DNA of 64,000 nt, taken from Echinostoma caproni. Lineage: Eukaryota; Platyhelminthes; Trematoda; Plagiorchiida; Echinostomatidae. Position numbers and translations under genes: made by a program. Below, piece after piece: positions 654-63,913 of this stretch. The first letter of the stretch is position 1; each line of letters starts with the position of its first letter. The notes beneath the pieces were generated by a model, which was not told the DNA's origin, ran no database searches, and saw only the letters and a list, made by a program, of their open reading frames with translations. Location of the stretch: contig UZAN01039473.1 in NCBI GenBank assembly GCA_900618425.1, forward strand, positions 68,059 to 132,058. The letters run 5' to 3'.

Positions 654-674
654 TCAATGCTTACTTCGACGCTG
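654..674 (+). CDS. Micro-exon A1, 21 nt
   Basis: The acceptor TTTTCTATTATCGTCTAG is followed by 21 nt and then GTGAGT. Phase-1 reading is NAYFDA plus a split codon that becomes Val with the next exon. It is the first member of cassette A. It matches exon 16322-16342 at 17 of 21 bases and gives NAYFDA against NAYFNA, which strongly supports both as coding. Confidence 0.88.
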
Positions 675-1490
675 GTGAGTTTCGATATCAATCACGTCTT
701 GACCGTGCCATTGCATATGATGAACTTTAAGTTTGGAATCAATGAAAATATTGAATGTGGCATGGCAACGGTGGATGGTTCAACTGACTACCACCTGTGA
801 AACGTGCTTGGATACGTCAAATCGTCTTTATCGCAGCCAAATAAAATTACAGCGATACAGTAAAACCGGTACAAGTGTTCTGCATACTTCTAATAGAAGT
901 TTAAATTTGGCTGGAAAACGGTGGTTAGAGATAAATTCAATACCTTGAATGCTAAGCTGAGACAAGTAGAGCCAGTTTTTAATTTCAGTATATCATTAGG
1001 TTTCATGATCAGATAGATACACCAATACAATACAATGTAATACAATCTGTCGATGAGTGAATCACCCTAATTTAGGCTTGAATGAATGATTTGCCAAAAA
1101 TTTCAATAAATCTTCCGAGTGGTTGTGGTTTCGAGTTCCACCTTCCCTTCTGGACTAATGCTAATTCCTCCCACAGCCTCTAAGTGACCGCTTCGTTCTG
1201 TCCTGTAAAGCAGACTATTAAACTGAATTAGCATGACGTGCAAGATTGATGAAATTATTACTATTGTTATTATTGTTAATATTGTTGTTACTTCGAATGC
1301 GTTTTTACTTGAAAATCCCACACAACATGTGGAAAAGGTATAAAAGCAAGAGAAACAGGAAAATATCAGAGAAAGCCAAGAAAGCGAACATTTTGGTGGG
1401 TCAGAAAACCCTAGTCAATATCGAAAACTAACAAAAGTTACAATGTTTGGCTAATTTCGTAAATCTGGTTGTTTCTACTTTGATCTGCAG

Positions 1491-1511
1491 TGACTGATGA
1501 CCGGCCATATT
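1491..1511 (+). CDS. Micro-exon A2, 21 nt
   Basis: The acceptor TTTCTACTTTGATCTGCAG and donor GTGAGT enclose 21 nt reading TDDRPY in phase 1. The counterpart in cassette B (17567-17587) has the same length and reads LNEPTY, and both are joined to the preceding exon through a GTG (Val) codon. The exon ends in T, so skipping the next exon would create TAA with 2991-3014. Confidence 0.82.
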
Positions 1512-2118
1512 GTGAGTTCAATTAAGACGAAAGTGTTAAAAAAGCTCGTAAAAGTTGGTCCAAGTGGCTATGAACTTCTTAGATCGTTAAGGTTCATTAC
1601 CCTTAGATAATCAAAGCCTCGGGATATGTTTTATTACTAACTGGTTAACCGCGCAGAAATGTATCTTATGTATATGTGTAAAAAAGTATCATGTTACCAT
1701 TTCATCAAATTTATCTAGAGCTTAAAAAATAAAAGTCTGAGATGTAATATGAGTTAAATCATCTTCTGAGAAAATCATTTTTATATTCCAGGTTATTACC
1801 ATGTCAGCCTAAATCTCTTGGTTACTGTGTGGAACATTCTTTGAATATTTATGCAATTAATGCATGTTAAAAATAACGGTTCCAGAGGATTCTTTCAGTG
1901 AAAAGAAGTTAAAATAAAATGGTTTGCAAATTGCACATCTCTCGATTGAATCAATGTTAGGAAACGTTCAGGAATGTGCAATATCGCAGTCGAATATATC
2001 CAACAATCGGGTAAACGTGCGTCTATAATTTTTCCTTCATAAAATGAATGTTGTCACATGTTAGTAAATGTAAAGAACGAGCACACCAGTGTTTAATCTG
2101 ATCAGTGAATGTATGAAT

Positions 2119-2155
2119 CAACCACCACCACCACCACCAACACCATCACCACCAT
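2119..2155. repeat. (ACC)n simple repeat
   Basis: An imperfect ACC/CAC trinucleotide run. It produces the poly-Gly and poly-Val ends of overlapping minus-strand frames, which are not genes. Confidence 0.9.
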
Positions 2156-2814
2156 GAACAACAAAAACCAGAAAAACGTCAACAACTGACACTGACTGTG
2201 TCATTTTCCTGTGGAGAATGGATAAAATAGAGGTTCGGGATGGTTGTGTAGTGGTTGCCATTGAGCGACCTGTTCTTGCGTGTCGAATAGGCTTGGGAAT
2301 TATTTCTCGAATTCTTGTGTACGACATGGCGAACAGGAAGAAATAAGCCAGCAAAACCTCTTTTTTGTATATATGGACTCGTGTTGGCTTCTGAGGCACT
2401 GATAAAAGAAGCTTGAATGCCTTCGATAGAAAACCCTGAGAGATTAGGCTCACAGAACCGGGCACATGTTTCGAAATATTCACCGTTTTCTAGTACGTGC
2501 ACACTCTCAGTAAACTAAAATGACAGGAAACTAGACAGTCATTCAATGAATAGGAAAACCTATGAATGTTTGTTCAACATTTCATCTTCAGATTTACGTG
2601 TTTTGCCGCACATCATTAAATAATCTTCGGTGCTTTGTTTGACACCGGATATAAAACCCTCACAGTATATGCTACATAAGCTCCTGTGTGAAAATACGAA
2701 TGTATTCCGTAGTTAAGAACAATATATTTAAAATAGAAACAACCAAACGCATTTTAGTGCTTCCCAAACTAATATATCTTTTAATTCATTTCATGTTTGC
2801 TTTCATTTAAACAG

Positions 2815-2853
2815 ATATGGAACAAAAGGAAGTACTAGACTTGGTGCCTTCTG
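2815..2853 (+). CDS. Exon A3, 39 nt
   Basis: A long pyrimidine-rich tract ending TTTAAACAG precedes the exon and GTGAGT follows. Phase-1 reading is MEQKEVLDLVPS. Exon 18519-18557 in cassette B has the same length and reads EERNTLANAVPS, sharing the terminal VPS. Frame 0 contains a stop, and the other open frame (phase 2) gives a reading with no match in cassette B. The intron to the next exon is only 137 nt, the shortest in the window. Confidence 0.9.
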
Positions 2854-2990
2854 GTGAGTTGTTTACACAGTTTTATGAAAAAAGGAATGCGATTGAGCGG
2901 TTGGAAAAAATGAATCTCGCTTTGCATTTGTAACTTCTTTTTGAATAAGACACAATGTTTACATTATTAACCGCTTCTTCTCGATCACAG

Positions 2991-3014
2991 AAACGAAGGA
3001 AGCTGTTATTCAAG
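2991..3014 (+). CDS. Micro-exon A4, 24 nt
   Basis: The acceptor CTTCTTCTCGATCACAG and donor GTAAGT enclose 24 nt reading TKEAVIQ in phase 1. It is joined to the 39-nt exon through a GAA (Glu) codon, as is its counterpart 19475-19498 (RKRRLFE) in cassette B. Confidence 0.88.
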
Positions 3015-3059
3015 GTAAGTTTTCTTGTTTAACAAACGCTTTCAACATATCTTGCAATA

Positions 3060-3245
3060 CAATTATTCTGTCCAATGAGAAAAATTTCATGAAGGTAAGA
3101 AGAAGCATCCTGATCACAGGATGTGTTGAACTCAACCAAACATGATCCGAATATATGTACACAGCTGATGAGGTTACGACGAAATCGTTGAATTCAACAC
3201 ATCCTGTGGTCATAATGCTTCTCCTTGTTCTCATTAAAGTGTTAA
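3060..3245. repeat. Short inverted repeat in intron
   Basis: A left arm near 3092-3139 (AGAAGCAT...CACAGGATGTGTTGAA) recurs inverted near 3187-3235 (TTCAACACATCCTGTGGTCAT...GCTTCTCC). The spacer is about 45 nt. The arms match over at least 35 bases with a few differences. It is consistent with a small palindromic non-autonomous element. The GTAAGA at the edge of the left arm is probably not a splice donor. Confidence 0.6.
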
Positions 3246-4779
3246 AGGGAACTGTTTGCTATCAGAATACGTTGTTTTACTACTGTCATAAAAACCTTTT
3301 CTCTGGAAGCTACCCGATCTTAGTACACTTATACACCGTCTCGTACAAAGTCCACACAATTGCAGATAGCATCCGTTCCATGATTGTTTGTAAAACGGTA
3401 GGTTCCCTCGGTTGGTTTGGAAACGTTTGCACGCTCGGCGAACAGGCGAACAGGACACTGGAGCAACAACAACTGATTGTTGCTTCTTTTAGTAAAATTC
3501 GTTTTTACTGCATTCATTCTCGATTTTGCATGCGAGTAGTGGCGCTTCAGTTGTGAGATATCGAAGCCTCCGTAGATACAAACAATAATAAATAGTAATA
3601 AAATTAGAAACCGACGTGACGCAGATATTGTACTATGCGTTTTGCAATGCTCGTGCAGTCCTTTATTGTTCATCATTTGGGGCAATTGTTTTGGCATGGG
3701 GTGCATCAGTCTAACTAGTAAATTGCGATTGCCATTTTATCTTGTGGGTGAAGCACTATAAATAAATATTACTCTAGAGTGAGGTCACTGTCTTTAACTC
3801 AGGTAGAACTTTTCCGATTATATGAGAATCCTGGCTGCTGGGTGACAATTGAGTGAATTCGACTTTGCGATGTGTGGAATAGCACACAAGTGAGATTTAA
3901 ATGATTGCTATCCCGAATCTCATGTGGAGTACGACAAAGAGCTCCATCTGCAGGAAGTATGGTTTTTTGGAGAGTCTTACAAGCATCGTGGTCACCAAAA
4001 GGGTGATTGGTCCATGCAATAAATGTCGCAAGGCACTGTGCAATCCAGCTTTCCAAGGGAACAATGAATCACATAAAATTTGATCAAATTCAATCAGCCA
4101 TAGTGAGATTAAGAATGCGTCCGGGATGCAAGTGCTCTGAAGGTAAATCTTTATTGAATATTGTTGTTGTGCTTCACCCGGGTTTACTCAAAAAGAAAAC
4201 TAACTAATATATAACCGTGGCTTTCTACATTGGTTCTGTTGCACAGTAGATTAGGACAGCTAAAATGCAGGTCCAAGATTCGTGCTCCACCACCCAACTT
4301 TGGTGGTAGGCAGCATTTTTGTTACCCGGTTCGATACCACGTCTAACCCAGCAGGGTTTTTTGTGATTCGCCTCACTAAGTCCAGGAGATCAGGTTGCCG
4401 GTTATCATTATTGAGCAGCAGGTCTTTGTGAAGATGGGGTTCGCCCCGTCTAGTGTTCATCACAAACCGATGTGAAATGCGAAAGGCAGAATAATTCCGA
4501 TTTAATCCCTTCGGGGATCATGTTAAACAAAGATAAGACCTTAGAACACAGCTAGTCTCGCGGGGTCAACCTCGCTGCGTTGAGGATTGATAAGCTCCTT
4601 GTAGCTATCAACATTGGCCAGTCACTGCGTCAGATCAGAAATCCACTGAAATGACTTCGCATTCTTTACCACACTTAATTCTGTATCAACAGTACTGATG
4701 AATTATTTTACTTGTAAACAAATGAGAAACATGTTTTGCAACTGGCATGCCTGTGTTTTTCTTGGGGTATTTTAATCAG

Positions 4780-4800
4780 CCATGACGACCTTCGAAAGTA
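4780..4800 (+). CDS. Micro-exon A5, 21 nt
   Basis: The acceptor GGTATTTTAATCAG and donor GTAAGT enclose 21 nt reading MTTFES in phase 1. The counterpart 20551-20571 in cassette B reads MVAFES and matches at 14 of 21 bases, followed by the same GTAAGTCAT donor. This is one of the clearest duplicate pairs. Confidence 0.88.
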
Positions 4801-5265
4801 GTAAGTCATAATGTACATGCGCAAACATAATCAAAAGACGCTGAAACAAGTTGGAGCTATTTTGTGGCTAACGTTTGTGCATATTCTATTGTACAATATG
4901 AAAAACAGGTACCATAATCCTATCAGAGTTATTTTGGTGTGTTATGAAATCGTTAGTAGCACAACTGAACACCACACATCGAAGAGGACGTTCATAACTG
5001 GCACTGACTTAAGTAGAAATAAGCCAAATGATCGATAAACCTGGCTATGCCTTATTTAAAAAACACATAGATCACAATATGTGTACAGTGATACCCTCGT
5101 GGAACCTGAAGGTTTCTGTGCAAACATACGAGGTTGATGCAGTTCAATCAGTAGGTGCAGCCGTTACCATAGCTTACACAATAAGTTTACTTTGCGAATA
5201 TTGACCCATTTGATTTCGTTCTTCAAGTTGCTGTGGAATTATTAAATATTGAATATTTTTTCCAG

Positions 5266-5289
5266 GAACTCATAGAATGCGGTTATTGG
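5266..5289 (+). CDS. Micro-exon A6, 24 nt
   Basis: The acceptor GAATATTTTTTCCAG and donor GTGAGT enclose 24 nt reading THRMRLL in phase 1. It corresponds by order and length to 22286-22309 (NRQLKEI) in cassette B. It joins the next exon through a GGT (Gly) codon, as the counterpart does. Confidence 0.85.
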
Positions 5290-7229
5290 GTGAGTTCATT
5301 GTAAATAATGTTCGAGAATAAGAAAAGCATTTATCATAGAACGGCCAAAACTGTAATTCAATGATCTTGCCTGAGCCGCACAATACATATGGAATTGACC
5401 AAACCAGGTGACCCGATCCGTATGTGCTAGTTGTGTTTCAGTATTCTGTGATGAAAAAACCTGCAAATGAAGATGAATGCTAAGAACAAAGACCTGGTCC
5501 ATAGAGCGATCTCACCTGTTCATACAATCGACCACACACTTAAGTGATAGCGTAGGAAAAGCAGAAAACACTGTTTCAATATCTGAAAGTACGTGCAGCA
5601 TGCAGTGGATATATGGAGCGAGTTTGGCAACTTGAAATGGCTTTAGAATGCAGACAGCGCCCTAACCACCTGTTATCCTGTATTTTAAACGTATTATAAA
5701 CATTAGAAGGCTTCGAGGCAAAAGATTCAATTAAAAAATACTTTATCGGCTTCATTGTGCTCGGGCGAGAATTTAAGTGGATGTGCAACCAGTCACAATA
5801 TAATCAACATACTTACAAGTAACATAGTTCCGGGGAATGAACAGATTCAGTGTGTATATACAAATGACAACTCGGAAAATGATCCCAGTCGTTATTTATA
5901 GAACTCGGCGCTGTCACAATAAATGCAATCCGGATGATGAATGGTCGAAATTAAGAGAAACGTAGTTTATTACTTGCAAGTAGTTACTCAAATCCATAGT
6001 TTACTTGAAAAGAAATATAATAGAATTTATCCTAGCCCATTTGCGCACAGAGACGAGACGTATACTGCAAACAATTTTTTTTACTTTTTACTGCTTTAAA
6101 TGGCCTGATTTCAGAAGTGGTTTATCATTCAACGACAAAATAATCTGCCGAATTTTCAATTTGCTGTTCAAGTGACCTGATGATCACGTACGATTCGCGT
6201 TTACTAAATATGTGTAGGAACTCCAGCACTCAGCATAACCTACGCGGTGACAACTAACTCTTTGGATAGCCACTTCCCAAACCCATCTGATATAGTATTC
6301 TTAATTCCACGTGTTTCGTTACCGAATTCATCTCTTCGCTCTGTCAAACTATTCGGAGAATCAGTGTATAGGGGTTGGTTCAAAATGGAGTGAATCACTA
6401 TAGCATGACGCAATATGAAGTAACAGGACATATTAAAGGTTCTTATGTGAAAGCAATCCATTCTTGCTTTTCACAATCAGATTCACCCGCTCAGCCTAAT
6501 CGGACTGAGTAGATTCGGTCAGCGAGAATTCGAGCTTTTTCAATAATCTTTGATTTCACGTGTGGTTTGGCAAACAGTAGTGCGTACTAGACATCCCAAC
6601 CAAACAAGGTGTGGGTTCCGGTCACCTGTGTGTGTTTGATCTCTGACGATGCGAAAGGAACAAATCGGAGCGCTATTCTCCCCGTCACTTTGACGTTTTG
6701 TATGACACGAGTGAATCAAATCATACTTGTGACGGTATTTGGAATGTGAAGACATGTGCACAGCTGTTTTCACATACAATTTTCCTTTACCGATTTTGTC
6801 GGATTCCAAAACAGCATGACTACTCGAGTGGCTCACTTCGAAGATTCTGAGCTATCTCCGAATATAAGAACTTTAAATTGAAAAAAGCTGTAAGAACCAT
6901 AACGGTTCTCTGAGCCAGTAATCATTCAACCAGGTAAAATCCAGCCGAAGGTAATGATTTATTTTTCGATTCAACGCTGGAAAATGAGAGCAACTAGTGC
7001 GTTCAGCGGACCCACGGTTACAATCCTATCCTTACACGGCCAGATTTACCACGAAGTCTGTTTTGCATTTTTATCTATTTCTGGTCTGCGGTGATGATGT
7101 CTCATAGGCTTGCTGAATTCTAAGAAACAAGCGGTCTTTTTCGGGTGATCAACCAAAACTCTTGAATTTCCGTGGATTTCTGTGTCTACAGAACTAAATC
7201 TCCCACTTACTATCATTTTCCCATTTCAG
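5290..7229 (+). other. Intron
   Basis: AT-rich sequence without a supportable exon or recognisable element. Short open frames on the minus strand (for example 6540-6836) have no family resemblance that I can see. AG/GT pairs near 6930-6950 lack a pyrimidine tract. Confidence 0.6.
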
Positions 7230-7253
7230 GTTCCAATCCCAAAACACGTGAAC
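7230..7253 (+). CDS. Micro-exon A7, 24 nt
   Basis: The acceptor ATCATTTTCCCATTTCAG and donor GTGAGT enclose 24 nt reading SNPKTRE in phase 1. The counterpart 23503-23526 reads IPANERM. Both start GT and complete a Gly codon from the preceding exon. An internal GTGAAC is a weaker alternative donor. Confidence 0.85.
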
Positions 7254-8141
7254 GTGAGTGCATTTCCAAACATTAGAATTGGTTACACATAAGCTGTTCG
7301 AGTTTCAGACCTATTATTCGTTCGACACGGTATTGCAAATCGAGTAGCGTGAAAGGAATGAAAATGGAAAGGTAATATGTGAAGGGCTTTCAGTGGTTGG
7401 AGCCGGGATAAGTCCGGTGCAATATTCTTTCGACGGATAGTCCCCATTAGTTTTGCCAAATAGGTTGTTCAACATCCGATGCTGTTTTGATTCAATCACG
7501 TTTACTTTTTCCGTGACTTGCATGATTCTCTTTCTCGTATACGAGCGAAACTCGAGTCTAGTACTTCCGAGTGTGTCTGACTGGATGAACTGATGGATGT
7601 GCATGAAGGTGAAGTCCGAATGATAGTCACTTCAAATCGATCAATATCAATCATCTCACAGTACCACTCACACCTATCTACCAGTTGAATACCAGTTCTC
7701 CTTTTCCGTGAGGAGGAAACATTTACAGTGCATTCAAAACTGATTCCAAGAACTGTCTAACCGAACTGCAATGCACCGTTAAAGCTCAGGACACATAGCG
7801 GTGAGAACGTCCTACTCATTGTAAAAATCACAATGAAAAATGTCAACTGCATTCTTGTAGTTTTAGAAACATTTTGTGATTCGGGAAACATATACATGAT
7901 ACTGCAAAATGTAGGCTAATTAAAAAGCGAACTGGAAGATGGCATGTGTTTTCCGGCAAGATTACTGTTTATTCCTAAACTGGACTCTATTCATTACAAA
8001 ATACTCAAGAAAATCACTTGTATTACGGCTTCGTGACCTGCAAAAATATGAAATCAAAAATGATTTTACCACTAGTGCTAGCTTTATATGTACAAACTGG
8101 TAACACAACCGTGTTTTTCTCCGTTCCAAATGTTCTTTCAG

Positions 8142-8153
8142 TAAACAGACAAG
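8142..8153 (+). CDS. Micro-exon A8, 12 nt (cassette A only)
   Basis: The pyrimidine-rich acceptor TCCAAATGTTCTTTCAG is followed by 12 nt (TAAACAGACAAG) and GTATGT. Phase-1 reading is NRQ between two split codons. No equivalent was found in cassette B between 23527 and 26602, so it may be gained, lost or optional. Confidence 0.75.
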
Positions 8154-9173
8154 GTATGTTTTCCAAAAAATAACAGTCAAATAAACACATTCATTTTTAT
8201 CCCCGGATTGATAGACTTTCGAATCGATAACCTTCTACGAAACCTGTTAAGAAAAGATATGTTAGTTTATCATGAACTATCATAATTTATTTATATTGTA
8301 ATAAATATAATATAATAACATTCAAACTATTCATTATTGGTAATATGATTGGTTTTCACATACTACGGAACACCATTTTTTTTGAGAGATAAGATTAAGG
8401 AAAGTGATAGCCAGATACTTTCTTCTACAGAATAAGTATGTACGTATTCTCCACCACATGCCGTAGTATCCCAATAGGGCATGGCAGAAACGAGCCAATA
8501 CCCGCAAAGAGTGCAATTCGGTCCCAGGTGCAGTGCTTGACCGTGTAAACGCGGCGAGATCAAGGACAGCGCTAAAAACGCTAAATTCGTTCTCAAACTT
8601 TTGGATACAAAAGGAATTACACATCATGAACCAACTGTTCTCACGATAGTGGTTTATGATCAGCCCAAAAAAGGAGGAGACGCAAAGCATCCAAACCTAG
8701 GATTACTCTTTGCATTCAATGCCCACTGATATCGGTTTGATATTCAACAGAGTAGGTTAAAGTTGGAATGGATATTTTAGGTTTTCATCGCAACATAGTG
8801 TATTACCTTGCGGGATGGACGAATAGCTCGCCAATGGCTGCAGCAACTCATTATGTTTATATTAACTTTAGTATGCGCTTTAGCAGACTCGGTTCAGATA
8901 TTCGGGAAACAACGTGATATTGATGTTGTGCTCTTTGTGCAATGCATCTGATTGAACTTCGCGTGCGACGTTATTATTTATGCTCACGGTATGCTCAATT
9001 AATTGGCATTCGCAAGTCAGTCCTCCCCGTCAAGTAACAGAAAACTGCACTGTCCCCGCTCCAATAAATCCTTATTTACCAAATGGGCAACAATATTTAC
9101 TCTATCTTACGCATTTGTAACTGGATTTGACAGTGTCAAAAATTAAATTTGCATAAACATTCCGCTTCTAAAG

Positions 9174-9197
9174 AAATCAGGGATTTGGTCACCCGTG
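9174..9197 (+). CDS. Micro-exon A9, 24 nt
   Basis: The acceptor CATTCCGCTTCTAAAG and donor GTGAGT enclose 24 nt reading IRDLVTR in phase 1. The counterpart 26603-26626 reads IQNIVFS; both begin AA then Ile. A nearer AG inside the exon would give 17 nt and break the frame. Confidence 0.75.
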
Positions 9198-11800: not shown

Positions 11801-14239
11801 CCCCATAGTCCGTTATTTCTACCTTTGTTTATAAGTGTGTTTTACCCATCTTACTTTATTGATCCCCAGTTATTTTTTCTGACTTACTTAAAGAGGATTT
11901 CATAGTATTGCACAGCTATTGAACCACTATTAACCTTGTCAGCCGCGTGTGAAATTTGCGGAGTAGATTCTCACAGATCCTGATCACCTATTACAAGCAG
12001 AACTGACAGGTGTTTTCCTCATTCTTCCACACGCTCCCGATTCCACCAAATTCTAGCTCGCGTGAACGCTTATCAAAATCCACATAACCGTGTCTTTCAC
12101 TTTCACTCACAAACAAAGAGAGAACAACAAAAGAAAACNACGAAATGTTCCTATGCTGTCTGCGAACCTATTTTCCCCGTTGAATACATTCTCTGCGACG
12201 ATTGGCGTAAATAATTCTGTAACTGAAATTCGAGCTTTAGCGATCGCAAATATTATACACATTAGCATACAAAACACCACTAAATAAAAAAATGAGTCAA
12301 CTGGAAGTGACGTTATTCACTATTTTGTAATATCGATGAAATATGTTATTTCTGTTATGGTCAAAGCGTTATTGGTAGCTGCAAATATGGCCGGAATACC
12401 GAAATGTTGCTGTGAAAAAACACTATCTTGGTTAGATAAAAACGTAGTGAAAGGAAAGATAATTACCGGTACCCATATATCAGAAATCGAACTTGGTCGA
12501 TTATGATGGCTGATGGACAACATTTAGAGATGTCTAATTGAATCGGTTTGTTGGTAGCCAAATGAGTTACAACATGGTGCTCCTACGATTGTTTCCAGCA
12601 GACGGAACTGATCTGATCAATAAGTACTGTTCACAGTTGGATCCTCAATAGGATCAAGAGAAATATGCATCTTATATCATTCCAAAATACGGCCAAACAG
12701 GTGCTTAGTGACTCCTAACATTTCGATCCTATGTTTACGTGCTGTACGTACGACAAAATTAAACTTGATCCATGATATCCACCGAACCGATTTACCTCCA
12801 CTTCAATTTTGAGTGCTCTAAAATGATCCATCGCGATGAGAATGAGACAGCCTTACCGTTTTCTCCTTCCCCTACCTCTGCTTTTTCTGAAATTCAGGTA
12901 GTAGTCCTACTACGTCGCGACGGAACCTACCAACACAGTCCTCAACACAATTGGACCTGGAAGGTGATTCTCAGTTACACGTTTGCGTTTTCAACCACAG
13001 ATAACTCTTTTGTTCCAATTGAACACAACCATATACTTGGACAGTGGAGGAAGTCATCTACTATTTCACCGAAGAAAATAAACGTTTATGAGGCAAAACA
13101 CACCGAAGGAGAGACGTATCTCAATGATCATAGTAAAACAAACACACGGGAGCCTCACGACTGAAGTAAATAGCTGGCAACCCTATTTTCGGCCGTTTCC
13201 TCATTCCTGAAAGTTTTATCATTCTTTTTTCCATAAGAGAAAATAAAAACGAAAGAAACATGAAACGTTGCCCAATATTTTTTTCTTTAAGCTAGTCTTC
13301 TATCTCGGAATTCTATTTTGTCAATTTTGAAAGCTCCAAAGTGAATTGGTCGATCAAGCCAGAAAGGTTGTGGTATATCTGGATTTCACAAATTGTAGCA
13401 CTTCACCAAGCTGCTTATCAGTACTATGCATGTTTTCTACCTTCAGTGCGCGTGGTTACGTGTGTGCTTTTTGATTTTAAACATGCTATACAAGATAAGC
13501 AGCAAAAGTGGAGCCATTCACAGTGATATGAATTAACTAAAGTACTTGACTTCAGTTAGAAGGCACACATTGCACACAACTCCTATTGTGGTCTACACGG
13601 GGGAGCGTGCATCTGTGCTCGTGGCTCCATCACGTTACATCTTTGAGATAAGATAGGAACAGTTGTTTTCGTCTTTCGAAATTGTTCAAAGCATCACGGA
13701 GTGCTTCGCAGCTCTTCAGTTCAAACTCGCCAAAACTGTCATCCGGAACAGTGGATTTGTGTCGTTGGAATAGATTATGGAACACCCCGTTTATGCAATG
13801 TGTTCGTGGAAACCATTTATTGATTGGCTATCTTGATTTACACATGATTTCAAAATTCATCTAAAAGGTTTGTTTGTTGCTTTTCGCATCGTACAATGTC
13901 CGGTTTATTTGTTTACCATACTTACTGGTGTTATTTATATCATCCTCCCTCCCGTTCTCAAACCAGCAAAGCGTAAGTGAAAACTCGGTTGCATGTTTCC
14001 CGCATTAAGTGTCCCCCTGTTTGTATTCCATACAGTTCATTAAGAGTCTCTAAATCGATCCATGACGACACCTATTGTACATGTATGAAACTAGGATACA
14101 CACCAGAGCAGATCTCTGTGCTTTGAATTATTTGCATCAGAGGCACAGTTGCCCCTCCACCTACTCACCCTACTCTACTGTGGTTCTGTGTTCATGCCTG
14201 GATGCATTTCACCAAAACCTGTCATTTGGGATGAGACTG

Positions 14240-15564: not shown

Positions 15565-15983
15565 NNNNNNNNNNNNNNNNNNNNNNNNNNNNNNNNNNNN
15601 NNNNNNNNNNNNNNNNNNNNNNNNNNNNNNNNNNNNNNNNNNNNNNNNNNNNNNNNNNNNNNNNNNNNNNNNNNNNNNNNNNNNNNNNNNNNNNNNNNNN
15701 NNNNNNNNNNNNNNNNNNNNNNNNNNNNNNNNNNNNNNNNNNNNNNNNNNNNNNNNNNNNNNNNNNNNNNNNNNNNNNNNNNNNNNNNNNNNNNNNNNNN
15801 NNNNNNNNNNNNNNNNNNNNNNNNNNNNNNNNNNNNNNNNNNNNNNNNNNNNNNNNNNNNNNNNNNNNNNNNNNNNNNNNNNNNNNNNNNNNNNNNNNNN
15901 NNNNNNNNNNNNNNNNNNNNNNNNNNNNNNNNNNNNNNNNNNNNNNNNNNNNNNNNNNNNNNNNNNNNNNNNNNNNNNNNNNN
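15565..15983. other. Assembly gap (N run)
   Basis: About 420 unresolved bases lie just upstream of cassette B. An extra micro-exon could be hidden here. Open frames spanning it are artefacts of translating N. Confidence 0.99.
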
Positions 15984-16321: not shown

Positions 16322-16342
16322 TTAACGCTTATTTCAACGCTG
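16322..16342 (+). CDS. Micro-exon B1, 21 nt
   Basis: The acceptor TCATCACTTCACACAG and donor GTAAGT enclose 21 nt reading NAYFNA in phase 1. It is the duplicate of 654-674. If spliced directly to 9174-9197 it reads on from IRDLVTR through a Val codon. Confidence 0.88.
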
Positions 16343-17566: not shown

Positions 17567-17587
17567 TGCTTAATGAACCAACATACA
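17567..17587 (+). CDS. Micro-exon B2, 21 nt
   Basis: The acceptor GTTGTTTTTCGATATTTTCAG and donor GTAAGA enclose 21 nt reading LNEPTY in phase 1. It is the counterpart of 1491-1511 (TDDRPY), with the same TG start and Val junction codon. It ends in A, so unlike A2 it does not make a stop if the next exon is skipped. Confidence 0.8.
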
Positions 17588-46406: not shown

Positions 46407-46427
46407 CAATTCCGAGGTACTTACATG
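46407..46427 (+). CDS. Micro-exon C7, 21 nt
   Basis: The acceptor GTTGTATCAAACAG and donor GTGAGT enclose 21 nt reading IPRYLH in phase 1. The acceptor tract is modest, while the donor and frame are good. Confidence 0.7.
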
Positions 46428-46675
46428 GTGAGTAACATGTATTCTGTGCCCTATTATAAACGGTAAGACAAAAAACCTGTTGTTGATTCTCACATTAAAC
46501 TTAAGCAATGGCTTAGACTATTCGATTCCAACATTTAACTATAATGTGCCTCATTTTAGAATGTTAGATGAAAAACACGAGATGCGCTCATTTTCAGGTG
46601 TTGTAATTCCAGTTGAAAACAATACCAAATTGTAATTTACAGTATTGTCCTGTTTACATTTATTATGATTACCAG

Positions 46676-46693
46676 CGCTTCAAGAGGCTCATG
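46676..46693 (+). CDS. Micro-exon C8, 18 nt
   Basis: The acceptor TTTATTATGATTACCAG is followed by 18 nt (CGCTTCAAGAGGCTCATG) and GTGAGT. Phase-1 reading is LQEAH. Confidence 0.83.
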
Positions 46694-48284
46694 GTGAGTT
46701 TTTCCAAAGCTCGTTTTATTATATCGGGATTTCTAGTGTCATCTACTTGCTTAGACCTATGAACGCCCGATTGGTTTAACAATACATTAGTTTATTCTGC
46801 CACCGCCGTTTACGCTGCGCATTTCGTTATTTCTCCAGGCAGCGTTTGTATGCTCTTGTCTCGCTGCCTGAAAATTTTCTATAATCTGAAAACAAAAATA
46901 AAGTAGAGCTGAATATATATATGTGTGTGTTTCAGCCATCATCGGTTTAACTCAGAAATGATAAAGAGTATCCTTTCTTAAAGGCAATGACAAAGCACTG
47001 TTGCTTAGAATGCCGCAGAAGAGCTGTGGTTATTGTTACCAAACCATTTGACAAAGTATCTCCATGAAAAAAGCTCAGAGCAAATAACAACAGTAAACCT
47101 CTTTTTGATGAGGATTTTGAAGGTGATTCTGTGTGCAACTCGAATCATAATCACAGCAGTGAATTTCAAACCCGCCTGCTTGTACGGTCGATGTGAACGG
47201 AAATTTGCCGAGCAATTTATCTTAAGCAGAAAAGGCGAATTATTTATATCACTACCGATCCCTTTGGAATCTTCAAATTTCAGTTGCACCATACGACGAA
47301 AATTGTACGTTCAAACGCTGGCTCGGACAACTATGTGATCTTTTTATACATTCACCAATTCGCAAATATTGCTCACACAAATTAGGTTTCTTGAAGTTGG
47401 AAAGATTATTTATGATTTTTATTTTCTTTGTTCGTTTGTTGTAAGTCATTTTCAAAATAGCGATGATCTCTAGAGCTCACTTGTCGGACCGGCAGAGGTA
47501 CTTCGATTCGCACATAAATACAGTTGTCTTAAATCTTCATCAGATATCCACCACGGAGTTTAGTTAATTATTGTGTTGTTTACAAACGAATGTATCAGTC
47601 TGTATGCTGTCTATATGAGCCGTAGTTGTATCCGATCGACCATGCATGGTCATAAAAAAATGACCAGTCCAATAATTTTACTTGACAAATTCTCGTTTGT
47701 GTAATTGATGGTTTGGCAGATTGAAGTTTTATGTTGAGATTATGAATAGTTCAGCTAAGCTACGAAGACACACCAAAAGCACTGATCTTTCCACATTCGA
47801 ATTACTCACCTAACTCAAAGATGTATGTGGCATGTGACAGGTGAAATCACTCATACTAGGTATATAAGAGTGAGTAGGGTAGACTCAAACCATGACCAGA
47901 CTGCCATCGTCAGTTTTGAACGTGAAAACGAATGCACTTTAGAATGCTTCCAGAAAAAGTGAAATATCCTTTTATCTTAACCAAATGGTTTTCTCTCTGG
48001 GAGACTACGATAAATATCGCCAGTGAAATATCGAACCCAGTGTAATCAGCTTTGCGGAAACAGCCGGAACACAATTTGAACAGCATTCATTCCTCTGTTG
48101 CTTTCATCTGTGCGGAATTTATTTGTCAATATTTCTCTTTATTGATAATAGGGTGCATTCATTCCTGCAATTCTGTGCATAAGTCATTTATAAATGTAAC
48201 GCATTGCAAACAAATCAAAAACAATTCATCATCAGAAATCACCGAACGAATTCACGTAGCTTCTAAATTTGTCACCCGTTCTAG
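46694..48284 (+). other. Intron
   Basis: A 9-nt AG-GT pair at 46839-46847 (GCAGCGTTT, donor GTATGC) is open in phase 1 but weak. Nothing else supportable was found. Confidence 0.5.
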
Positions 48285-48299
48285 TCAAAAATGCTAAGG
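48285..48299 (+). CDS. Micro-exon C9, 15 nt
   Basis: The acceptor GTCACCCGTTCTAG is followed by 15 nt (TCAAAAATGCTAAGG) and GTAAGT. Phase-1 reading is KNAK. Confidence 0.8.
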
Positions 48300-50509
48300 G
48301 TAAGTTTCCATATTGTAAGTTCTCGTGAAACGTTGCCAGAGAAAATTATTGCATATTGAGTAGGATCGAGTTTTCTGGCTTTGCAGAGCGTTTGTAAATC
48401 TCGTGCACACAGATGCACACAGGTTTGAAATTACGCGGTTTTGCTTATTTGAGACATACTCGTGAGAGAAGATCTTTTGTCATTGAGTCTATTCGATCAG
48501 CCTGGATGAATTGTTCCTGACTGCCTGAACGATCCTGAGTACATGGAATCTGTAATGTGATGATAACTTGCTTCAGCATAAAAGATTCCCCGACTCACAT
48601 AACCCTTTTTCACCTTAGTATAGCAGCATCAGTAAACATTTGTCACTGGGCAATGTCCTGAAATCCCCGCTTCATATCATTTGTATTGCGATTGCTCAAT
48701 GTAATTGGCTTGGCATCTATCATGATTTGGAAAAATCCTTAAATACATTGCGTTTTTATCAATTAGCACTATGATTTTTAGGGTGGTCTTGTACATGTTT
48801 TACATTTCAGGGGCAAATTTCCTAATGATTACGTTACAATGTTTTCCAGTAATTCTGCAGCTTAAGACAAATTCACCACTAGACTATCTGTATCACTCAT
48901 CCCTCTTCTTTTAGCCATCGTTATTTTGGAAAACTGATATCATGATACAATTTTAAAACATAAAATTCCGTGCTTTTAATGAATTTACATGCTGTCATTC
49001 TTTGTGGCACAGTCAGATGTATTTACGCTCCCACAACACCGATTTTGGATTCAATCATTTACACGGAAATCCCATCAGAGAGCAACTTAACGAATTTCAG
49101 TTTATCACAGAGGTACACCTGTCTTCCTCAATGACAGACTCAACAGGATTTGTGCGCAATAGGGCATTTATCTACCGCAACGTGGAGCGCACAGCAAATG
49201 CACCTAGCAGTCCAGATATCAGGTCACATGGTTGTAGCGTGTTTGTATTTTCCACCAATGGAGAAGTCAATGGCGGCCTCTCACAACAGAACAGAATTGG
49301 TGAATATATAAATCACCTCATGATTTTCCGTGACATACACAGATGGCCTACAATGTATCTATAGGTTTACAATGTGTATGTATTTGTAAGTAGCCTGAAG
49401 TAGGGATTGAAAACTGTTTTTTGGTCCAGATAAACAGGTCTTCCCATGATTTTTGGTTATGTTACTCGATGAAAAAGATTGCGCAGAAGAAGGTTTTCTT
49501 ATTTGAGAAATCTCTCGGACAAAATTTGTCGATACCAAACGTTTCCTAGAAAGGGTATCCTTTCATTGTGAGTGCACTGTATGATGAGAAAAATACGCAT
49601 TCGTCAATGTGATTGAGACTATTCGACCTGCAATAAATAAATATGCCTCTCTGGTTCCACTTTACCCGGTAACAAGATCTAACACAAACTCTACCAATCC
49701 CTTGTAGATTGCGCCGCAATTTTGCAAATCTAACATTAGAACACGTTTTTGTCGTCCTAATAACTGGCATGTATGATTCCGATGATGCGCTTAAATTATA
49801 GATATATTTATCCTTAGATAACACACTCAATAGCAGCTTTGTTTTTTTGGCAAAATTTGCATTCCAATTGATCCGTATAGATCAAGAGCTAGAAGAGCAC
49901 GTTAAAATGAAAGTGTAAACAAATGAGTTCCTTCAGATTGTTCGGGATAAAAATTATGGGATGCATTTCTGGAACGTCTTCATTTCAACAACTCGTGAGA
50001 TTTGACAACGGTGATTCATTCTGATAATACTGCTGAACACTTGTAAATTTCCAATCATACGATCTGATCTCAGATTTTCTTTCATAGGGAGTATTGACAC
50101 AAGCGCTCCGTAAACGAAGATCCCTATGTGGAGCTCAGCGTGCACTAACGTTGATGACGTTTTAGTTGGTCACTCGATAATAATCATAATAATAATAATC
50201 AATACGGTCAATAGCAACCACCAGAAAAACAACTGGTTTGACATCAAGGGACTTTATAGAACTGTTAAAACGTGGACCGTTTACTTCGCTAATTTGACTC
50301 GTAATTTCCAAACAACTCAACTGTAGGCATCATGTCACTTCCACCCTTGAAGTCACTTCTTAGTTAATCCATAATTTTGCTCTCTTTATTCTGTTTCCTT
50401 TGAAATTCACCCTCTCTGTCTCAAATGCATAACTTAGTCAAGCAATTTAGTAATATTGAACGAGTTATTTTCACACACTCCTTTTATGCCACCGATTATT
50501 CTAAAACAG
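48300..50509 (+). other. Intron
   Basis: A 21-nt AG-GT pair at 49365-49385 is open in phase 1 but reads LQCVCI, unlike the Cys-free gene, and was not accepted. The open frame 49002-49364 is unrecognised. An (ATA/ATC)n run lies near 50177-50203. Confidence 0.5.
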
Positions 50510-50521
50510 AAATCCAGAAGG
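50510..50521 (+). CDS. Micro-exon C10, 12 nt
   Basis: The acceptor CCGATTATTCTAAAACAG is followed by AAATCCAGAAGG and donor GTGAGT. Phase-1 reading is IQK between Glu junction codons. It is nearly identical to the next exon (AAATACAAAATG), implying a recent single-exon duplication. Confidence 0.82.
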
Positions 50522-53778: not shown

Positions 53779-53796
53779 CCCAAGAAAAAGGATCAC
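53779..53796 (+). CDS. Micro-exon C13, 18 nt
   Basis: The acceptor TATTCTTACGCCTCACAG is followed by 18 nt (CCCAAGAAAAAGGATCAC) and GTGAGT. Phase-1 reading is QEKGS. Confidence 0.82.
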
Positions 53797-54006: not shown

Positions 54007-54024
54007 GAACACCTTATTACCAAG
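54007..54024 (+). CDS. Micro-exon C14, 18 nt
   Basis: The acceptor CATTTGGCCTTTTTACAG is followed by 18 nt (GAACACCTTATTACCAAG) and GTAAGT. Phase-1 reading is TPYYQ. Confidence 0.87.
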
Positions 54025-57934: not shown

Positions 57935-57943
57935 ATCGTTCCG
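57935..57943 (+). CDS. Micro-exon, 9 nt
   Basis: The strong tract ACCCTGTTACCTCCATTCAAG is followed by 9 nt (ATCGTTCCG) and donor GTAAGA. Phase-1 reading is RS between split codons. It is the smallest exon accepted. Confidence 0.55.
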
Positions 57944-60277
57944 GTAAGATCATTTAAAAGCGATTTTTTAATGAAATCAAAGCACTGAATTGCGTTAATA
58001 GGGAATGCAGTTGTTGAGTCAACCTCTCCCACAAACTCCATAATGATACAATATTTTAACGATAGATACTTAATCACAGCAAACAATAGACAACTCAGAA
58101 CTTCTTACACTGCTTTTGGAGTTCTGAAAAGGTCATTTAATCCGACAGTTCTATTTTCCTTCACATTTGTGGTCCACTGAATAAAAAAGCACATTGAAAT
58201 TGTTGTTCTTTTTCACATTCCGACTCCTAATTAGTTGGATCACCTCTAATCTTCCTAGTAACCTTCTCCGCAGGTGTCTTCTATTCAAATCCGTTCAATT
58301 CCGCACTAGTCAGTTTTCTCAGCCCGAGTTGTCTTCAATGGAACACAGTTCCTGAGTCATACTCTTTGGTGCAATGCCGGTTTTATTAGTCCGGTGACCT
58401 CTGATCCTTTTCTCTATTTTTATCAAAAAGTAACAAGTAAAATCCTGCAGTTTCAATGAGACCATTTCACAAACCAATGGACATTATTGCATTCAACTAA
58501 ACAGAAGTCTCATGGAAAAATGCTTTTCGGGAGGAAATATTTTTCAAAATTATTTCATAATAAAAGATACATTTGGCATTTCGACCGCACAATGGTTAAG
58601 TTGAACGATTCACTTAGGACACGAGAAGAATTTATAGGCACATAAACTACCACCTATATTATGGTTATTATTGTCCATGATGCACTATTTTACAGACTGG
58701 CTGCATCATTTGCGGCCTTTGAACTACTTAAAACATCAAGATTCTGCTAAATTATCTGATTCCAGTTGGTATTTTTCCATTCATTTTTGTGTAGTGATCT
58801 ATGATGAATTACGTTTTAATACAATTATGGAAATATTCATCCCCTCAACAGGACTAAAATTTCACTCGAAATGTTCAATTTGAACAGGAAAAACACGTTT
58901 GTGTTCGGGGATCAGATACGGCAACTTTCTGCCAGAAATACAAGAATTATTTTATTCGAAGCTTATTAGACAAAATCTAATCATATTTCCTACACAACAT
59001 TTTTCTGTGATACTTATCGCATCATCATCATCATCATCATCATCATCATTATTCGGTAAACATATCACGCAAGGAATACCACGGAAAGTCGGTTTAACGT
59101 TCCTAAAGAATAACCTAAATAAAACTGTAGCAGTGATTTGGGATGGTCATCACAGTGAGAAAAGCCCGTCGAAGTGGTTTCTAGATAAGTAGATCTTCCG
59201 TGTATGTCCGCAAAGTTTTGAAGGATAGGATCTAAACTGTTGGTAGCATCAAAAAGACTGGGTTCAAAATTGTTTTTGTCCGTACAATTCACTCGTTTAG
59301 CATGATCTCTAAGAGTACAATAAATTTAGAAATCATTCACTCTGACACCGTCTGAAAATCATGGCTGCTCAGTATGGTCACGTCGTTGTGGATGACTAGA
59401 AAAAAACGCAGAGATTTGGTCCTGCTAGATGCGGCGATTTTACTTTCGGATCGGATCGGGAATCCTGAATAAGCAAGGATCCAACAGCATATACACTGGA
59501 GGTTTCAGAGCTTTGCGACTGTTCAGCAACAACGCAAATCACCGTCATCGAGATCAAAGTTACACAAATTACACAAACAGAGCAGCTAAGATGAAATCTT
59601 TGATATCCAAATTTAAGGGCCGATTGAAAACGTTTCGTACATTGTTCTCGTGCTTACTATCATGCCGACGTCAGTTGCTACGTTTCCGAGCCATTCGGGT
59701 ATCTGCGACCTGCTCCAACACTTCAGTTGTTGAAATGATTGGTACTGAATTAGGCAAAGATACAATAATATCCTCTCATCTGACTTTTACCGTTAATCTG
59801 TCAAGCGTGTGTGTGTGATATCAACCGGAGAACATAATTTCACACGTAAAGCTCGAAAGCCAACCACGAATTTCGTGATATTCCCACTGATCACCTGTGC
59901 CTGACGGTTTCACATTTCGTGGTTAATTACCTCGTGCCTAGAGCAAAATAACTGTTAACTGAAAAGCTGGAAACTACAGAACAGCTGTTTTGAACTGGTT
60001 TGGTCTCATCTGCAGTGCAAATCGATGACCCGACTGAGGAGTGACCTCGGGACCCCACAAGTTGAACGCATGCAGAATAACCACTCATTCAGCCACCTAC
60101 TTGAGTACGAATATATCTCACAATATGTGGTGCAGTTCAGTATCTTTAGGAAAGCATGCGAAAAAAATACCATTTCTAAAATTATTTGTACATTTTTTGA
60201 TTCATGATATCGTTTTGGGAATGAGCATAAATGAAGAATGAATTTCCTTTTATTGTGTATATTCAATCTTTTTCAAG
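57944..60277 (+). other. Intron with simple repeat
   Basis: It contains an (ATC)n run near 59020-59049. A 21-nt pair at 59134-59154 (IWDGHH, donor GTGAGA) is open in phase 1 but has a poor acceptor and a Trp, and was not accepted. The open frame 59429-59818 is unrecognised. Confidence 0.5.
59020..59049. repeat. (ATC)n simple repeat
   Basis: About ten ATC repeats, giving the artificial poly-Ser of the frame at 58899-59192. Confidence 0.92.
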
Positions 60278-60298
60278 CTCCAACTCCAACCATGAAAA
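60278..60298 (+). CDS. Micro-exon, 21 nt
   Basis: The acceptor ATATTCAATCTTTTTCAAG and donor GTGAGT enclose 21 nt reading PTPTMK in phase 1. It continues a short Pro/Thr-rich segment after the helical block. Confidence 0.82.
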
Positions 60299-60549: not shown

Positions 60550-61015
60550 TTAATGACTTCGGAGTTCTTCAAGGTGCTGTTCTTTCCCTCTAATTATTCA
60601 CTGATTGCCTTAGCGATGTATTTGTATTGTCACCTGTCTCAATTAGGAAATATGTAGGTGATGTTTATTGACTTGTGTCAAGCTGTTTCAAATCAGTGAG
60701 ACTTTCCTTTTGTCCCTGATAATCTCATTGCTGGTCGGGATGTTGTCCTGCAATGAAGTTCTATCCTGAAATTTATCCAAATGTTTTGAGAGTATCAACA
60801 AACTTTCTACATTCTCATGTCCCATTGAACTCGGGTGCAATAGCGTCTCTTGAGTTTGTCGAGTGGAGGCTATCAAGTCCCTTGGCGTTACCGCGAAAAA
60901 TAGTTGCAAATGGTCTACCTATATCCTAAGTACTGTTAGCAAACACATCAGGCTACTACAAATCCCAAAAATGGATCAACGGCTTGAACATTTGGCGGAA
61001 TAATTTCACAATCAG
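60550..61015 (+). mobile_element. CR1-like LINE relic
   Basis: Near 60555-60670 a frame reads DFGVLQGAVLS, a stop, then LFTDCLSDVFVLSPVSIRK and YVGDVY. This corresponds to the 'PQGSVLGP-LF--Y-NDL' block and the YADD position. Further on, near 60865-60945, EAIKSLGVTAKNSCKWST matches the 'K-LGV-----L-W--H' block. Stops show that it is dead. Confidence 0.7.
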
Positions 61016-61059
61016 TCCAGCTGACTTGGCGCTAACCAGATTTTCTCATCTGAAACTGA

Positions 61060-62560
61060 AATTCCGTTGGCAACAAGCAGAAGCATAATTTCAGTATTGG
61101 ACACAAGCTCTGCAGCGAGGAAACGCAGCAGTACCGGACGGGCTTTCTTGGTGGAAGTAAAAACCTCGCAATCTCTACTGCAAATTACTGTAATACATTT
61201 GAATGTGAGAGTGCATTACTTTATCTCGGAGCTAGTAACTGAGTTTTGCCATCTCCAGGATACGATCGCACAACGATTTTGCAAACCACCGTCGGACATG
61301 TTTGCTCCCGATAGTCATCAAAATGTTAAGCTCCGTCATACTTCGACGTCTGACTCCTTTAAGAAAGACCAACATCCATGGAGAGCCAGGCGGATTCCGA
61401 CTTGACCGTGAGTGTATGGATCAAATTCTTACGTTGCCTCAGGTTCTTGAGCTGCGTCACACCCACCGTCGACCAACGATCGCAGTGATCTTTAATATGA
61501 AAGGGGCTTTCGACGCAGTTGAGCGAGAAGCTCAGATGGTTCCCTCCTTCTAAAAGGAATACCTCAAAGGTACGTTAACTTATTGAGGTCACTGTACCCG
61601 CACATCTCTGGTCAAGCAAGGGTCTATGATGAACCAAACAGGCCGTTCATCACCAGTAGCGGTATCCGGCAAGGTTGTCCCCTCTCGCCATTCCTGTTTA
61701 ATTGCGTCGTAGACGAAATACTGGAGTGAGCACTTAGTGGTCTCCAAAACGTAGGCGTTGAATGGACAACGGAGAAAACTGTGCGATTTGGAGTACACAG
61801 ATGACGTCATTTTTCTGTTTGATTGTATGGAGAAAGCTCAAAGTGTACTTCATAGAGTTACATCTGCTATAACCCCATTCAGTATGTACATTTAACCTTC
61901 AAAGTATAAGTTATGCTGCAATACCTAGGAAAATGTATGAATAATAACGGTAGCGTATCAAATGAGATAACTACTCACATTTCTAAGGCTTGAGCAACAG
62001 ACGCAATAATGTTATTTCAGAAGACTGGTGCTAGCCGGAGGAAAGTTGTTTATTAAGATCCACAGCCGAAGTATAGGTAATTTGGCTTACAGATAACAGT
62101 AGATCTCATTTTAAACATGTTATCACGATTCCTGGAAACACAAATAATAATGAACGAAACAGTTTTTAGCTGACATTGTGAACACAGCATTTTGCTTTAC
62201 GAGGTTTGATCGTTTTTGACACTTAACAAAAACCATCAACCGCATTCTTTTGGATGCGGACCAACAGGACTGAAAAAGCTTTGGTGCAGACACGAATTTC
62301 CAATGAAGTTTAACAATTGTGTATATCGCGCTAGCGTTCGTTCAGTTCTGCCTTAAGTTTGCGAGATCTTGAATTTGCGAGCGGGAGATATCCATCAACT
62401 GGCAGTTCTAGATTATCGATGTTTATGTAGTGCAACCCATTTAGGATAATGCGAATGGCTTAGAAATCTGGAGGTAAGCACCCGTGTATATGGAAGTTTA
62501 TTTGCAATAAACTTGTTAGTTCATCGAATTCAAATTTGTAGAATTTGCTGGCTAGAGAAC
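61060..62560 (+). mobile_element. RTE-like LINE relic
   Basis: RT blocks in sequence but in changing frames are: GGFRLDRECMDQILTLPQVL near 61388-61450, with HRRPTIAVIFNMKGAFDAVE after it; SSGIRQGCPLSPFLFN near 61645-61695; EYTDDVIFLF near 61792; YLGKCMNNNGSVSNEITTHI near 61920-61985. The catalytic YADD is changed to YTDD here, and stops and frameshifts occur throughout. Family placement (RTE-type against other trematode LINEs) is from memory of motif order. Confidence 0.78.
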
Positions 62561-63895
62561 CGTATCGTGTTTTACTTGATGTTGTCTCTCCAGCTTGGAG
62601 GAACCCCCATGGATATCAACAGATGGTTTTGAGGTGAAACAAATAAATGCACCAAGCGATTAGGAAGAATAGGTGTCTCGTGCCTCCCAGTATCAGGCCT
62701 GAAGGACTCTGCCATTGGGTGTTTGGATATATTGAAGGATATGGCAGCGAACCAACAGTAGTGACGTACTCCTTATCACTTCTTATCCGGCTAAAATGCT
62801 TGAAACGATATGTATGCACAGATAGGTTGCGTATTCCGTCTGTTGACCATAGAAGTGCACCCTACTAAACTCCCTCGTACACAATTCATGCCCTAATCGC
62901 CTTACCTAATGCCACAAACATTTTATAAATTACGAACTTGATGGCAATCAGTAAATTCCCCCTCACTGTATTTCGCTGTGCAGTTATGATAATGTTGATT
63001 TTGCAGTAGGGCGATTTCGTGTGAACCTTTTGCTCACACAACCCATTTGGTTCATTCAAACTAATCACCATTTGGTTCACATCCTTTGACTAGGTTCGGT
63101 TTTCAATTTGTTCCAACGATATCTGGCATTTTTGAATATTCGCATATAAATCTCACAAGCATGGGTTGGCATAAAGTTGTCATGTCATTCCACCTGCACG
63201 TATGTATATGTGCCAACTGCAGTCGAACTGGCCTTCATGGTTACTCTTTCTTCATTAACTTACTCACAGTAAAATTCACTCTGACTGTAGTGTGCACATG
63301 TACCTATGCAGCCAAACGGTCGTAGATGAGTATGTGAATTTCTTACCCGGAACTGTGGAAGACAACCAGTGTTTTCAGTTTATTAAAAACTACCTTTTGC
63401 ATTGTTAGTCCGAATGTCTGTTGCTAAACAAGTATCAAACAACGTCTGATCGAACTGAATTACTTAGTAGACATCCCGTAATATATTCACACCATTTGAT
63501 GTTTCAAGGGAGGATGAAGATTGAGAGAACCCCACGGCACGTAATTCGGGAAGTTAGATTGATAGGCTGCTTCGAATTTGGGAATCTCAAACTCACTGAA
63601 TGGCGTTCAACCCCCTCCTCCTCCTTGAAGCAGACATATTTGGGATTTAACTGGTTTTGTTTATTCTACCATCCCTGTTTTAATTGTAAGCACTGCCTCG
63701 TAGTTATATCAGGAAACTACTAGACCTAAATGGCATTCAAAAATGGATTCCTCGCCGAATGTTGAAATGATATAATGAAAAACTATTGTAGTTTCGGTCT
63801 AATTTTTCAGGTTATCACGATTAAGTGCCATCTATCTTTTATCCTGAAATGCGCATATAAAGGTATTTCATTTGTTTACTCTTTTACCATAACAG

Positions 63896-63913
63896 TTGAC
63901 GATGATGGAGCTC
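63896..63913 (+). CDS. Micro-exon, 18 nt (last in window)
   Basis: The acceptor TACTCTTTTACCATAACAG is followed by 18 nt (TTGACGATGATGGAGCTC) and GTAAGT. Phase-1 reading is DDDGA. The donor shows that the gene continues beyond the window. Confidence 0.85.

Follow-up and report, generated by a model that had tools for sequence, protein, structure and literature searches.

Does the plus strand of contig UZAN01039473.1, between contig positions 68,059 and 132,058, carry a giant gene assembled almost wholly from micro-exons? An original prediction, made from the letters of this 64,000-nucleotide (nt) stretch (hereafter the window), proposed 41 plus-strand exons, 34 of them no longer than 36 nt, reaching from position 654 to 63,913 at a coding density of 1.7%. 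Our analysis indicates that the plus strand probably holds the interior of a trematode-like flatworm micro-exon gene, most likely one gene, of the type of the VAL6 tail or of the micro-exon genes (MEGs). A layout of about 20–30 symmetric phase-1 coding exons, mostly 12–39 nt long and separated by introns of about 0.1–7 kilobases (kb), between 654 and 54,024, is likewise probable, and the gene probably runs off the window's 5′ edge.

We evaluated the array by counting non-overlapping best AG..GT pairs of 6–45 nt scoring at least 14 bits, with no choice on length or phase, using generic metazoan splice matrices that were untrained on the window. The plus strand gave 28 pairs, of which 24 were multiples of three (binomial p 1.6e-8), and 22 of these 24 were open in phase 1, compared with 16 in phase 0 and 15 in phase 2. 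The same scan of the minus strand returned 19 pairs, seven of them multiples of three and six open in phase 1, while 200 order-3 Markov sequences averaged 16.9 pairs, 6.0 in frame and 3.9 open in phase 1 (maximum 29, 14 and 11). Moving the cut from 12 to 20 bits left the trend between the strands unchanged. The shared in-frame length and phase 1 of the original prediction, retested here without choosing on either, hold on the plus strand and not on the minus. A matrix-free splice pattern, mildly biased since it was written once the first candidates were known, found 17 plus-strand pairs, each of them an in-frame interval open in phase 1; the minus strand had ten (three in frame, two open in phase 1), and 200 Markov sequences averaged 7.0, 2.35 and 1.39 (maximum 16, 7 and 7). 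With refined matrices, which are partly circular because 26 plus-strand exons of the window itself served to retrain them, 40 of 42 strong plus-strand donors had an acceptor 6–100 nt upstream, and the best acceptor produced an in-frame phase-1-open exon for 23; on the minus strand the corresponding figures were 27 of 30 and three. The plus-strand array of in-frame phase-1 micro-exons is real, lies far above chance and is no product of earlier selection. Intronic 6-mers flanking the exons gave no clear signal.

These counts bear directly on the reading of the array as an artefact, in which chance AG..GT intervals in AT-rich DNA were chosen for being in frame. Chance is indeed expected to supply about half of a set as large as the original: a loose cut gave 39+8 candidates on the plus strand, 19+5 on the minus strand and 18.7+5.75 in Markov sequences, so that the controls reach roughly half the plus-strand count. 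The unselected length and phase statistics, compared with the minus strand and the Markov sequences, argue against this reading, as do the duplicate exons and amino-acid composition described below, and we regard it as highly improbable. For the strong exons, a chance artefact was ruled out by the minus-strand and Markov controls.

The number of exons is smaller than first proposed. The original exon list was not itself given; our closest rebuild comprised 42 exons and 1101 nt (1.74% density, 35 exons of 36 nt or shorter, no stop). We used two working models, one of 33 exons encoding 281 amino acids (aa) and one of 42 exons encoding 366 aa. Posteriors from the refined matrices summed to 24.7 over the 42-exon set and, over all candidates, to 28.8 on the plus strand, 6.8 on the minus strand and 7.4 in 40 Markov sequences. 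Real exons thus number roughly 20–30 and the remainder of the list of about 41 is at chance level: the frame and phase statistics uphold the array, and the posteriors do not uphold the full count. All 17 matrix-free matches and every posterior above 0.5 fall between 654 and 54,024, and posteriors beyond this point are low (0.13 at 57935, 0.06 at 60278 and 0.42 at 63896), so the proposed extent to 63,913 is shortened accordingly. Individual weaker exons may be wrong in either direction; the matrix-free matches at 38262 and 48285 have posteriors of 0.14 and 0.13, and 33460, a member of the 33-exon model, only 0.03. Most of the coding region lies in short symmetric exons, at most 36 nt in 27 of the 33 model exons and at most 39 nt in 30. 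That no junction creates a stop was also true of the rebuilt set, but the outcome is nearly automatic: a phase-1 junction stop needs a T, and the last base is G in 28 of the 33 model exons and T in only one. Runs of N occur at 15565–15983 (419 N) and 42390–42804 (415 N), along with three single N; exons could hide there. The candidate exons on the plus strand (+) are as follows.

654–674 (+): micro-exon VNAYFDA, 21 nt; matrix-free match, refined score 15.9, posterior 0.63; duplicate of 16322–16342
2815–2853 (+): micro-exon DMEQKEVLDLVPS, 39 nt; matrix-free match, score 20.4, posterior 0.98
2991–3014 (+): micro-exon ETKEAVIQ, 24 nt; matrix-free match, score 23.0, posterior 1.0
5266–5289 (+): micro-exon GTHRMRLL, 24 nt; matrix-free match, score 20.4, posterior 0.98
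7230–7253 (+): micro-exon GSNPKTRE, 24 nt; score 21.4, posterior 0.99
7861–7920 (+): possible terminal exon, ends approximate; acceptor 6.6, phase-1 stop after 18 codons, ATTAAA at 7919; may be chance
8048–8153 (+): possible first or alternative exon, opening at an ATG with hydrophobic MKSKMILPLVLALYV... and reaching a 9.9-bit donor in phase 1
8142–8153 (+): possible 12-nt micro-exon, alternative to 8048–8153; matrix-free match, posterior 0.58
9174–9197 (+): micro-exon EIRDLVTR, 24 nt; score 17.0, posterior 0.79
12898–12963 (+): Ser/Thr/Pro-rich exon, 66 nt; score 18.9, posterior 0.97
16322–16342 (+): micro-exon VNAYFNA, 21 nt; matrix-free match, score 17.3, posterior 0.81; duplicate of 654–674
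18463–18557 (+): 95-nt candidate for a stop-bringing or terminal exon, all three frames having stops; generic score 21.6, among the strand's highest
18549–18557 (+): possible 9-nt exon, alternative to 18463–18557; posterior 0.56
19475–19498 (+): micro-exon ERKRRLFE, 24 nt; score 23.5, posterior 1.0
23503–23520 (+): possible micro-exon, 18 nt, outside the 33-exon model; posterior 0.55
26603–26626 (+): micro-exon EIQNIVFS, 24 nt; matrix-free match, score 24.3, posterior 1.0
28699–28722 (+): micro-exon GATGRLPS, 24 nt; score 17.1, posterior 0.80
32302–32349 (+): exon GGIRKASSAESLTTTR, 48 nt; score 16.2, posterior 0.79
33460–33513 (+): doubtful exon GDSPRFARKNQDPSPSAQ, 54 nt; generic score 14.6, refined 9.3, posterior 0.03
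33639–33653 (+): micro-exon VNPSR, 15 nt; posterior 0.30; an alternative acceptor gives 33624–33653, a matrix-free match
35506–35520 (+): micro-exon AHPVS, 15 nt; matrix-free match, score 19.7, posterior 0.95
36165–36194 (+): possible micro-exon AFAPLEILQK, 30 nt; score 15.1, posterior 0.54
37124–37150 (+): possible micro-exon, 27 nt, outside the 33-exon model; posterior 0.62
38262–38282 (+): possible micro-exon FKRIVKI, 21 nt; matrix-free match, posterior 0.14
39628–39648 (+): micro-exon GKVTVHH, 21 nt; matrix-free match, score 17.8, posterior 0.86
41728–41748 (+): possible micro-exon EAQNRIV, 21 nt; score 15.4, posterior 0.54
43696–43734 (+): micro-exon EILKDVVTAVQNN, 39 nt; matrix-free match, score 19.6, posterior 0.97; resembles 44500–44538
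43896–43925 (+): micro-exon EVQFQYDPGF, 30 nt; matrix-free match, score 17.8, posterior 0.88
44500–44538 (+): micro-exon EILVEWMTMMNSN, 39 nt; score 19.9, posterior 0.98; resembles 43696–43734
45990–46025 (+): micro-exon EMTRQLHQYLIR, 36 nt; matrix-free match, score 16.1, posterior 0.73
46407–46427 (+): possible micro-exon AIPRYLH, 21 nt; score 14.3, posterior 0.36
46676–46693 (+): micro-exon ALQEAH, 18 nt; matrix-free match, score 17.2, posterior 0.80
48285–48299 (+): possible micro-exon VKNAK, 15 nt; matrix-free match, posterior 0.13
50510–50521 (+): micro-exon EIQK, 12 nt; score 18.2, posterior 0.87
53779–53796 (+): micro-exon AQEKGS, 18 nt; score 16.5, posterior 0.70
54007–54024 (+): micro-exon RTPYYQ, 18 nt, the last well-supported exon; matrix-free match, score 23.2, posterior 1.0
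57935–57943 (+): weak candidate, 9 nt; posterior 0.13
60238–60298 (+): weak candidate for a hydrophobic first exon, MNFLLLCIFNLFQA...; start candidate
60278–60298 (+): weak 21-nt micro-exon, alternative to 60238–60298; posterior 0.06
63896–63913 (+): weak candidate, 18 nt, ending where the original prediction ended its last exon; posterior 0.42

Similarity between exons provides evidence of coding beyond the splice scores. Exons 654–674 and 16322–16342 share 17 of 21 bases and are the sole pair reaching at least 15 of 21 among 72,390 AG-21 nt-GT comparisons on both strands. Inspection of the sequence in phase 1 shows synonymous changes at three of the four mismatches (V, N and Y) and a change of D to N at the other, pointing clearly to a duplicate under protein-level constraint; comparison of the flanks of the two exons gave no convincing similarity. 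The second-best similar pair was EILKDVVTAVQNN (43696) and EILVEWMTMMNSN (44500), and the two highest exon-pair scores each beat their counterparts of equal rank in all 1000 residue shuffles. Weaker similarities, 2991/19475 and 9174/26603, follow the order of 654/16322 at a distance of about 16–17 kb (654–9197 versus 16322–26626). This order may reflect an old duplication, within the array, of several exons; 2991 scores equally with 9174. Composition also separated the exons from controls. The 249 inner residues of the 33-exon model include no Cys, versus 3.5% in 1072 minus-strand control intervals (p 2.6e-4). The combined share of Asp, Glu, Lys, Arg and Gln among these residues is 32%, versus 24% in the controls (p 0.003), with no difference for Glu alone or Lys alone. 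In full, the 281-aa model has no Cys and the 366-aa model one.

Is such a gene new in kind? The giant micro-exon architecture is rare but, size included, already known from Schistosoma mansoni VAL6 (SmVAL6, Smp_124050). In its published description, this gene covers 64,721 base pairs (bp) with 38 exons, 17 of them under 20 bp, the small exons sharing one phase, and it lacks a signal peptide (PMC2270263), and the original statement that known MEGs are far smaller fails against it. The same account gives alternative splicing, stop-containing exons, group-2 introns of phase 1/1, two similar pentamer exons (KDDQY/KDEQY) and a C-terminal extension of about 295 aa, and there reports no SMART domain besides CAP (PMC2270263). 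Part of VAL-6 is described as resembling a MEG, with a VAL-MEG recombination idea cited (PMC4350168), and Smval6 knockdown is described as raising tegument permeability (PMC7957364). The array here shares with SmVAL6 an extent of tens of kb, dozens of tiny same-phase exons, two similar exons and a long gene for a short product, its status as one gene being predicted.

One form of the micro-exon gene reading, overlapping it, makes the window the 3′ part of another trematode's VAL6 orthologue, with the CAP (SCP/TAPS) exons upstream. The size, exon number and phase of SmVAL6 favor it, as do the lengths of about 295 aa for its extension and 281 aa for the 33-exon model, together with duplicated exons and a stop-containing 95-nt splice pair here that resemble features of SmVAL6. 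However, no CAP domain appeared at E≤0.1 in any plus-strand frame of the window, though the domain could lie upstream, and the plus strand has no [DE][DEN]QY to match KDDQY/KDEQY, an absence that bears on closeness to the S. mansoni gene and no further; the motif need not be conserved. Patterns for K-[DE]-[DE]-QY and for CAP-like motifs gave short isolated matches only, such as GENL at 5764 on the plus strand. The likeness to SmVAL6 is drawn from the published description. Because the plus-strand frames hold no CAP domain and no KDDQY-like exon, we did not assign the array to VAL6; orthology is possible, and this form of the reading is on balance unlikely. Equally unlikely, in our estimate, is a second giant trematode micro-exon gene, neither related to VAL6 nor one of the secreted MEGs, that would encode a cytoplasmic scaffold-like protein with its whole body drawn from at least 30 phase-1 micro-exons and with very many in-frame isoforms. 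Aphid bicycle genes are rapidly evolving and have many micro-exons; they are insect genes with paired cysteine motifs, unlike the cysteine-free 33-exon model.

The MEGs offer the other comparison. They are described as 35 genes with 10–20 exons of 6–81 bp, whose products bear a signal peptide and reach at most 189 aa (PMC10526429), the bulk of the coding sequence lying in symmetric 6–36 nt exons set apart by long introns (PMC5825161, PMC10526429), and MEG-26 as internally duplicated, with exon lengths that recur (PMC5825161). Alternative splicing of the micro-exons and a hydrophobic or aromatic motif directly following the signal peptide are further MEG traits. The array resembles them in its short symmetric exons and duplicated exons, and differs in having about 20–30 exons over 53 kb and, in the 33-exon model, a charged, cysteine-free product, 281 aa long if the array is a single gene. 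It was not assigned to the MEGs because a signal peptide is unsupported beyond the borderline candidates at 8048 and 60238.

These candidates underlie the reading of the window as tandem secreted MEGs of ordinary size, one ending at about 7.9 kb, a second starting at 8048–8153 and perhaps a third at 60238. Hydrophobic ATG-to-donor exons in phase 1 (donor at least 8, hydropathy at least 2.5) numbered two on the plus strand, none on the minus strand and 0.2 per Markov sequence, and starts of the 8048–8153 type (donor at least 9.5, hydropathy at least 2.5) are expected 0.07 times per Markov sequence. Just upstream of 8048 lies the possible terminal exon at 7861, with its stop after 18 codons and ATTAAA at 7919. 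VNAYFDA and VNAYFNA could be paralogues, one in each of two genes, and because MEGs as described have 10–20 exons with a signal peptide (PMC10526429), 25–30 exons would amount to about two genes. Yet the start candidates show little phase preference and could be chance: in phase 0, the search at hydropathy of at least 2.5 gave one on each strand, and at donor of at least 8 and hydropathy of at least 2.2 the plus strand had three in phase 0 and three in phase 1. Both 8048 and 60238, judged by donor strength and hydropathy, are borderline relative to chance, and the gene's 5′ end may fall beyond the window. The acceptor of 7861 is weak (6.6), acceptors of that strength are common, and the plus strand contains 82 matches to A[AT]TAAA. 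The same-order weak pairs would moreover place 9174 in the unit of 654, across the supposed break, and the peptide is charged and lacks cysteine. We consider tandem MEGs somewhat unlikely; 7861–8153 is possibly a gene boundary or chance. The 95-nt interval at 18463–18557 could be a terminal exon, a stop-bringing exon like those described in SmVAL6, or a decoy beside a 9-nt exon.

Several observations weigh against one micro-exon gene. The splice and coding signals come from DNA and not from transcripts, and searches for first and last exons gave no decisive gene end in the window. The candidate starts at 8048 and 60238 and the possible terminal exon at 7861 allow a gene break, as do the 7.1 kb after 19,498 that lack a model exon; the single gene of the original prediction is thus a probable reading, with tandem genes as the less likely one. 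Against a collection of 5.8 billion proteins, the 281-aa peptide drew 577 candidates and the 366-aa peptide 3017, none at E≤10 in either case. The collection does contain trematode proteins, as matches of Opisthorchis viverrini to a reverse transcriptase show. The peptide, searched whole plus one block, had no relative in the PDB, and neither the whole peptide nor three blocks rose above the Pfam cut-off (best DUF577 at E 0.023 and IMPa_N_2 at E 0.095). These homology negatives are weak evidence of novelty, because genes of this kind are difficult to annotate.

If the array is one micro-exon gene, its phase suggests how it may work. The strong exons start and end in phase 1, and therefore any one of them can be skipped without a frameshift. 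By analogy with VAL6 and the MEGs, cassette splicing would yield a disordered or helical tail in many versions that differ in length and sequence. The predicted product would begin with a charged N-terminal part, continue through a basic middle rich in Ser and Pro (12898, 32302 and perhaps 33460) and include a longer block of helical appearance (39628–50521), terms that reflect reading of the sequence by eye.

Micro-exon genes challenge ordinary gene finders, and sequence searches often miss their relatives. Here, raw DNA statistics, namely in-frame length together with one shared phase compared with the opposite strand, recover the array without transcripts or a homologue, and genes of this kind could be counted in flatworm genomes at large by the same test. 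Should the array prove to be a single gene other than the VAL6 orthologue, VAL6 would no longer be the only example of the giant micro-exon design. A single gene would also offer a second locus at which to test how flukes recognize 9–40 nt exons in kilobase introns and what purpose the isoforms serve.

Beyond the array, the plus strand carries a decayed reverse transcriptase of non-LTR (long terminal repeat) type at 61284–61919 (RVT_1, Pfam E 9.8e-8), with stops and frame changes. Only two of its 822 candidates matched at E≤0.001, both Opisthorchis viverrini proteins, at 52 and 53% identity over 25% and 13% of the query; these matches make a trematode host likely, in line with the affinity originally suggested. 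A Pfam scan of the three plus-strand frames (stops as X) found nothing at E≤0.1 except RVT_1. Ten of the 11 N-free plus-strand open reading frames (ORFs) of at least 120 aa were scanned, with none above the Pfam cut-off (Nup188_N at E 0.0099), nor any among the ten longest N-free minus-strand ORFs, to which Pfam searches of that strand were limited (GRXCR1-2_C at E 0.074). Rfam at gathering scores and a tRNA scan gave no match in the window. Repeats of at least 60 nt were absent from the window, and two tandem repeats, both short, were present.

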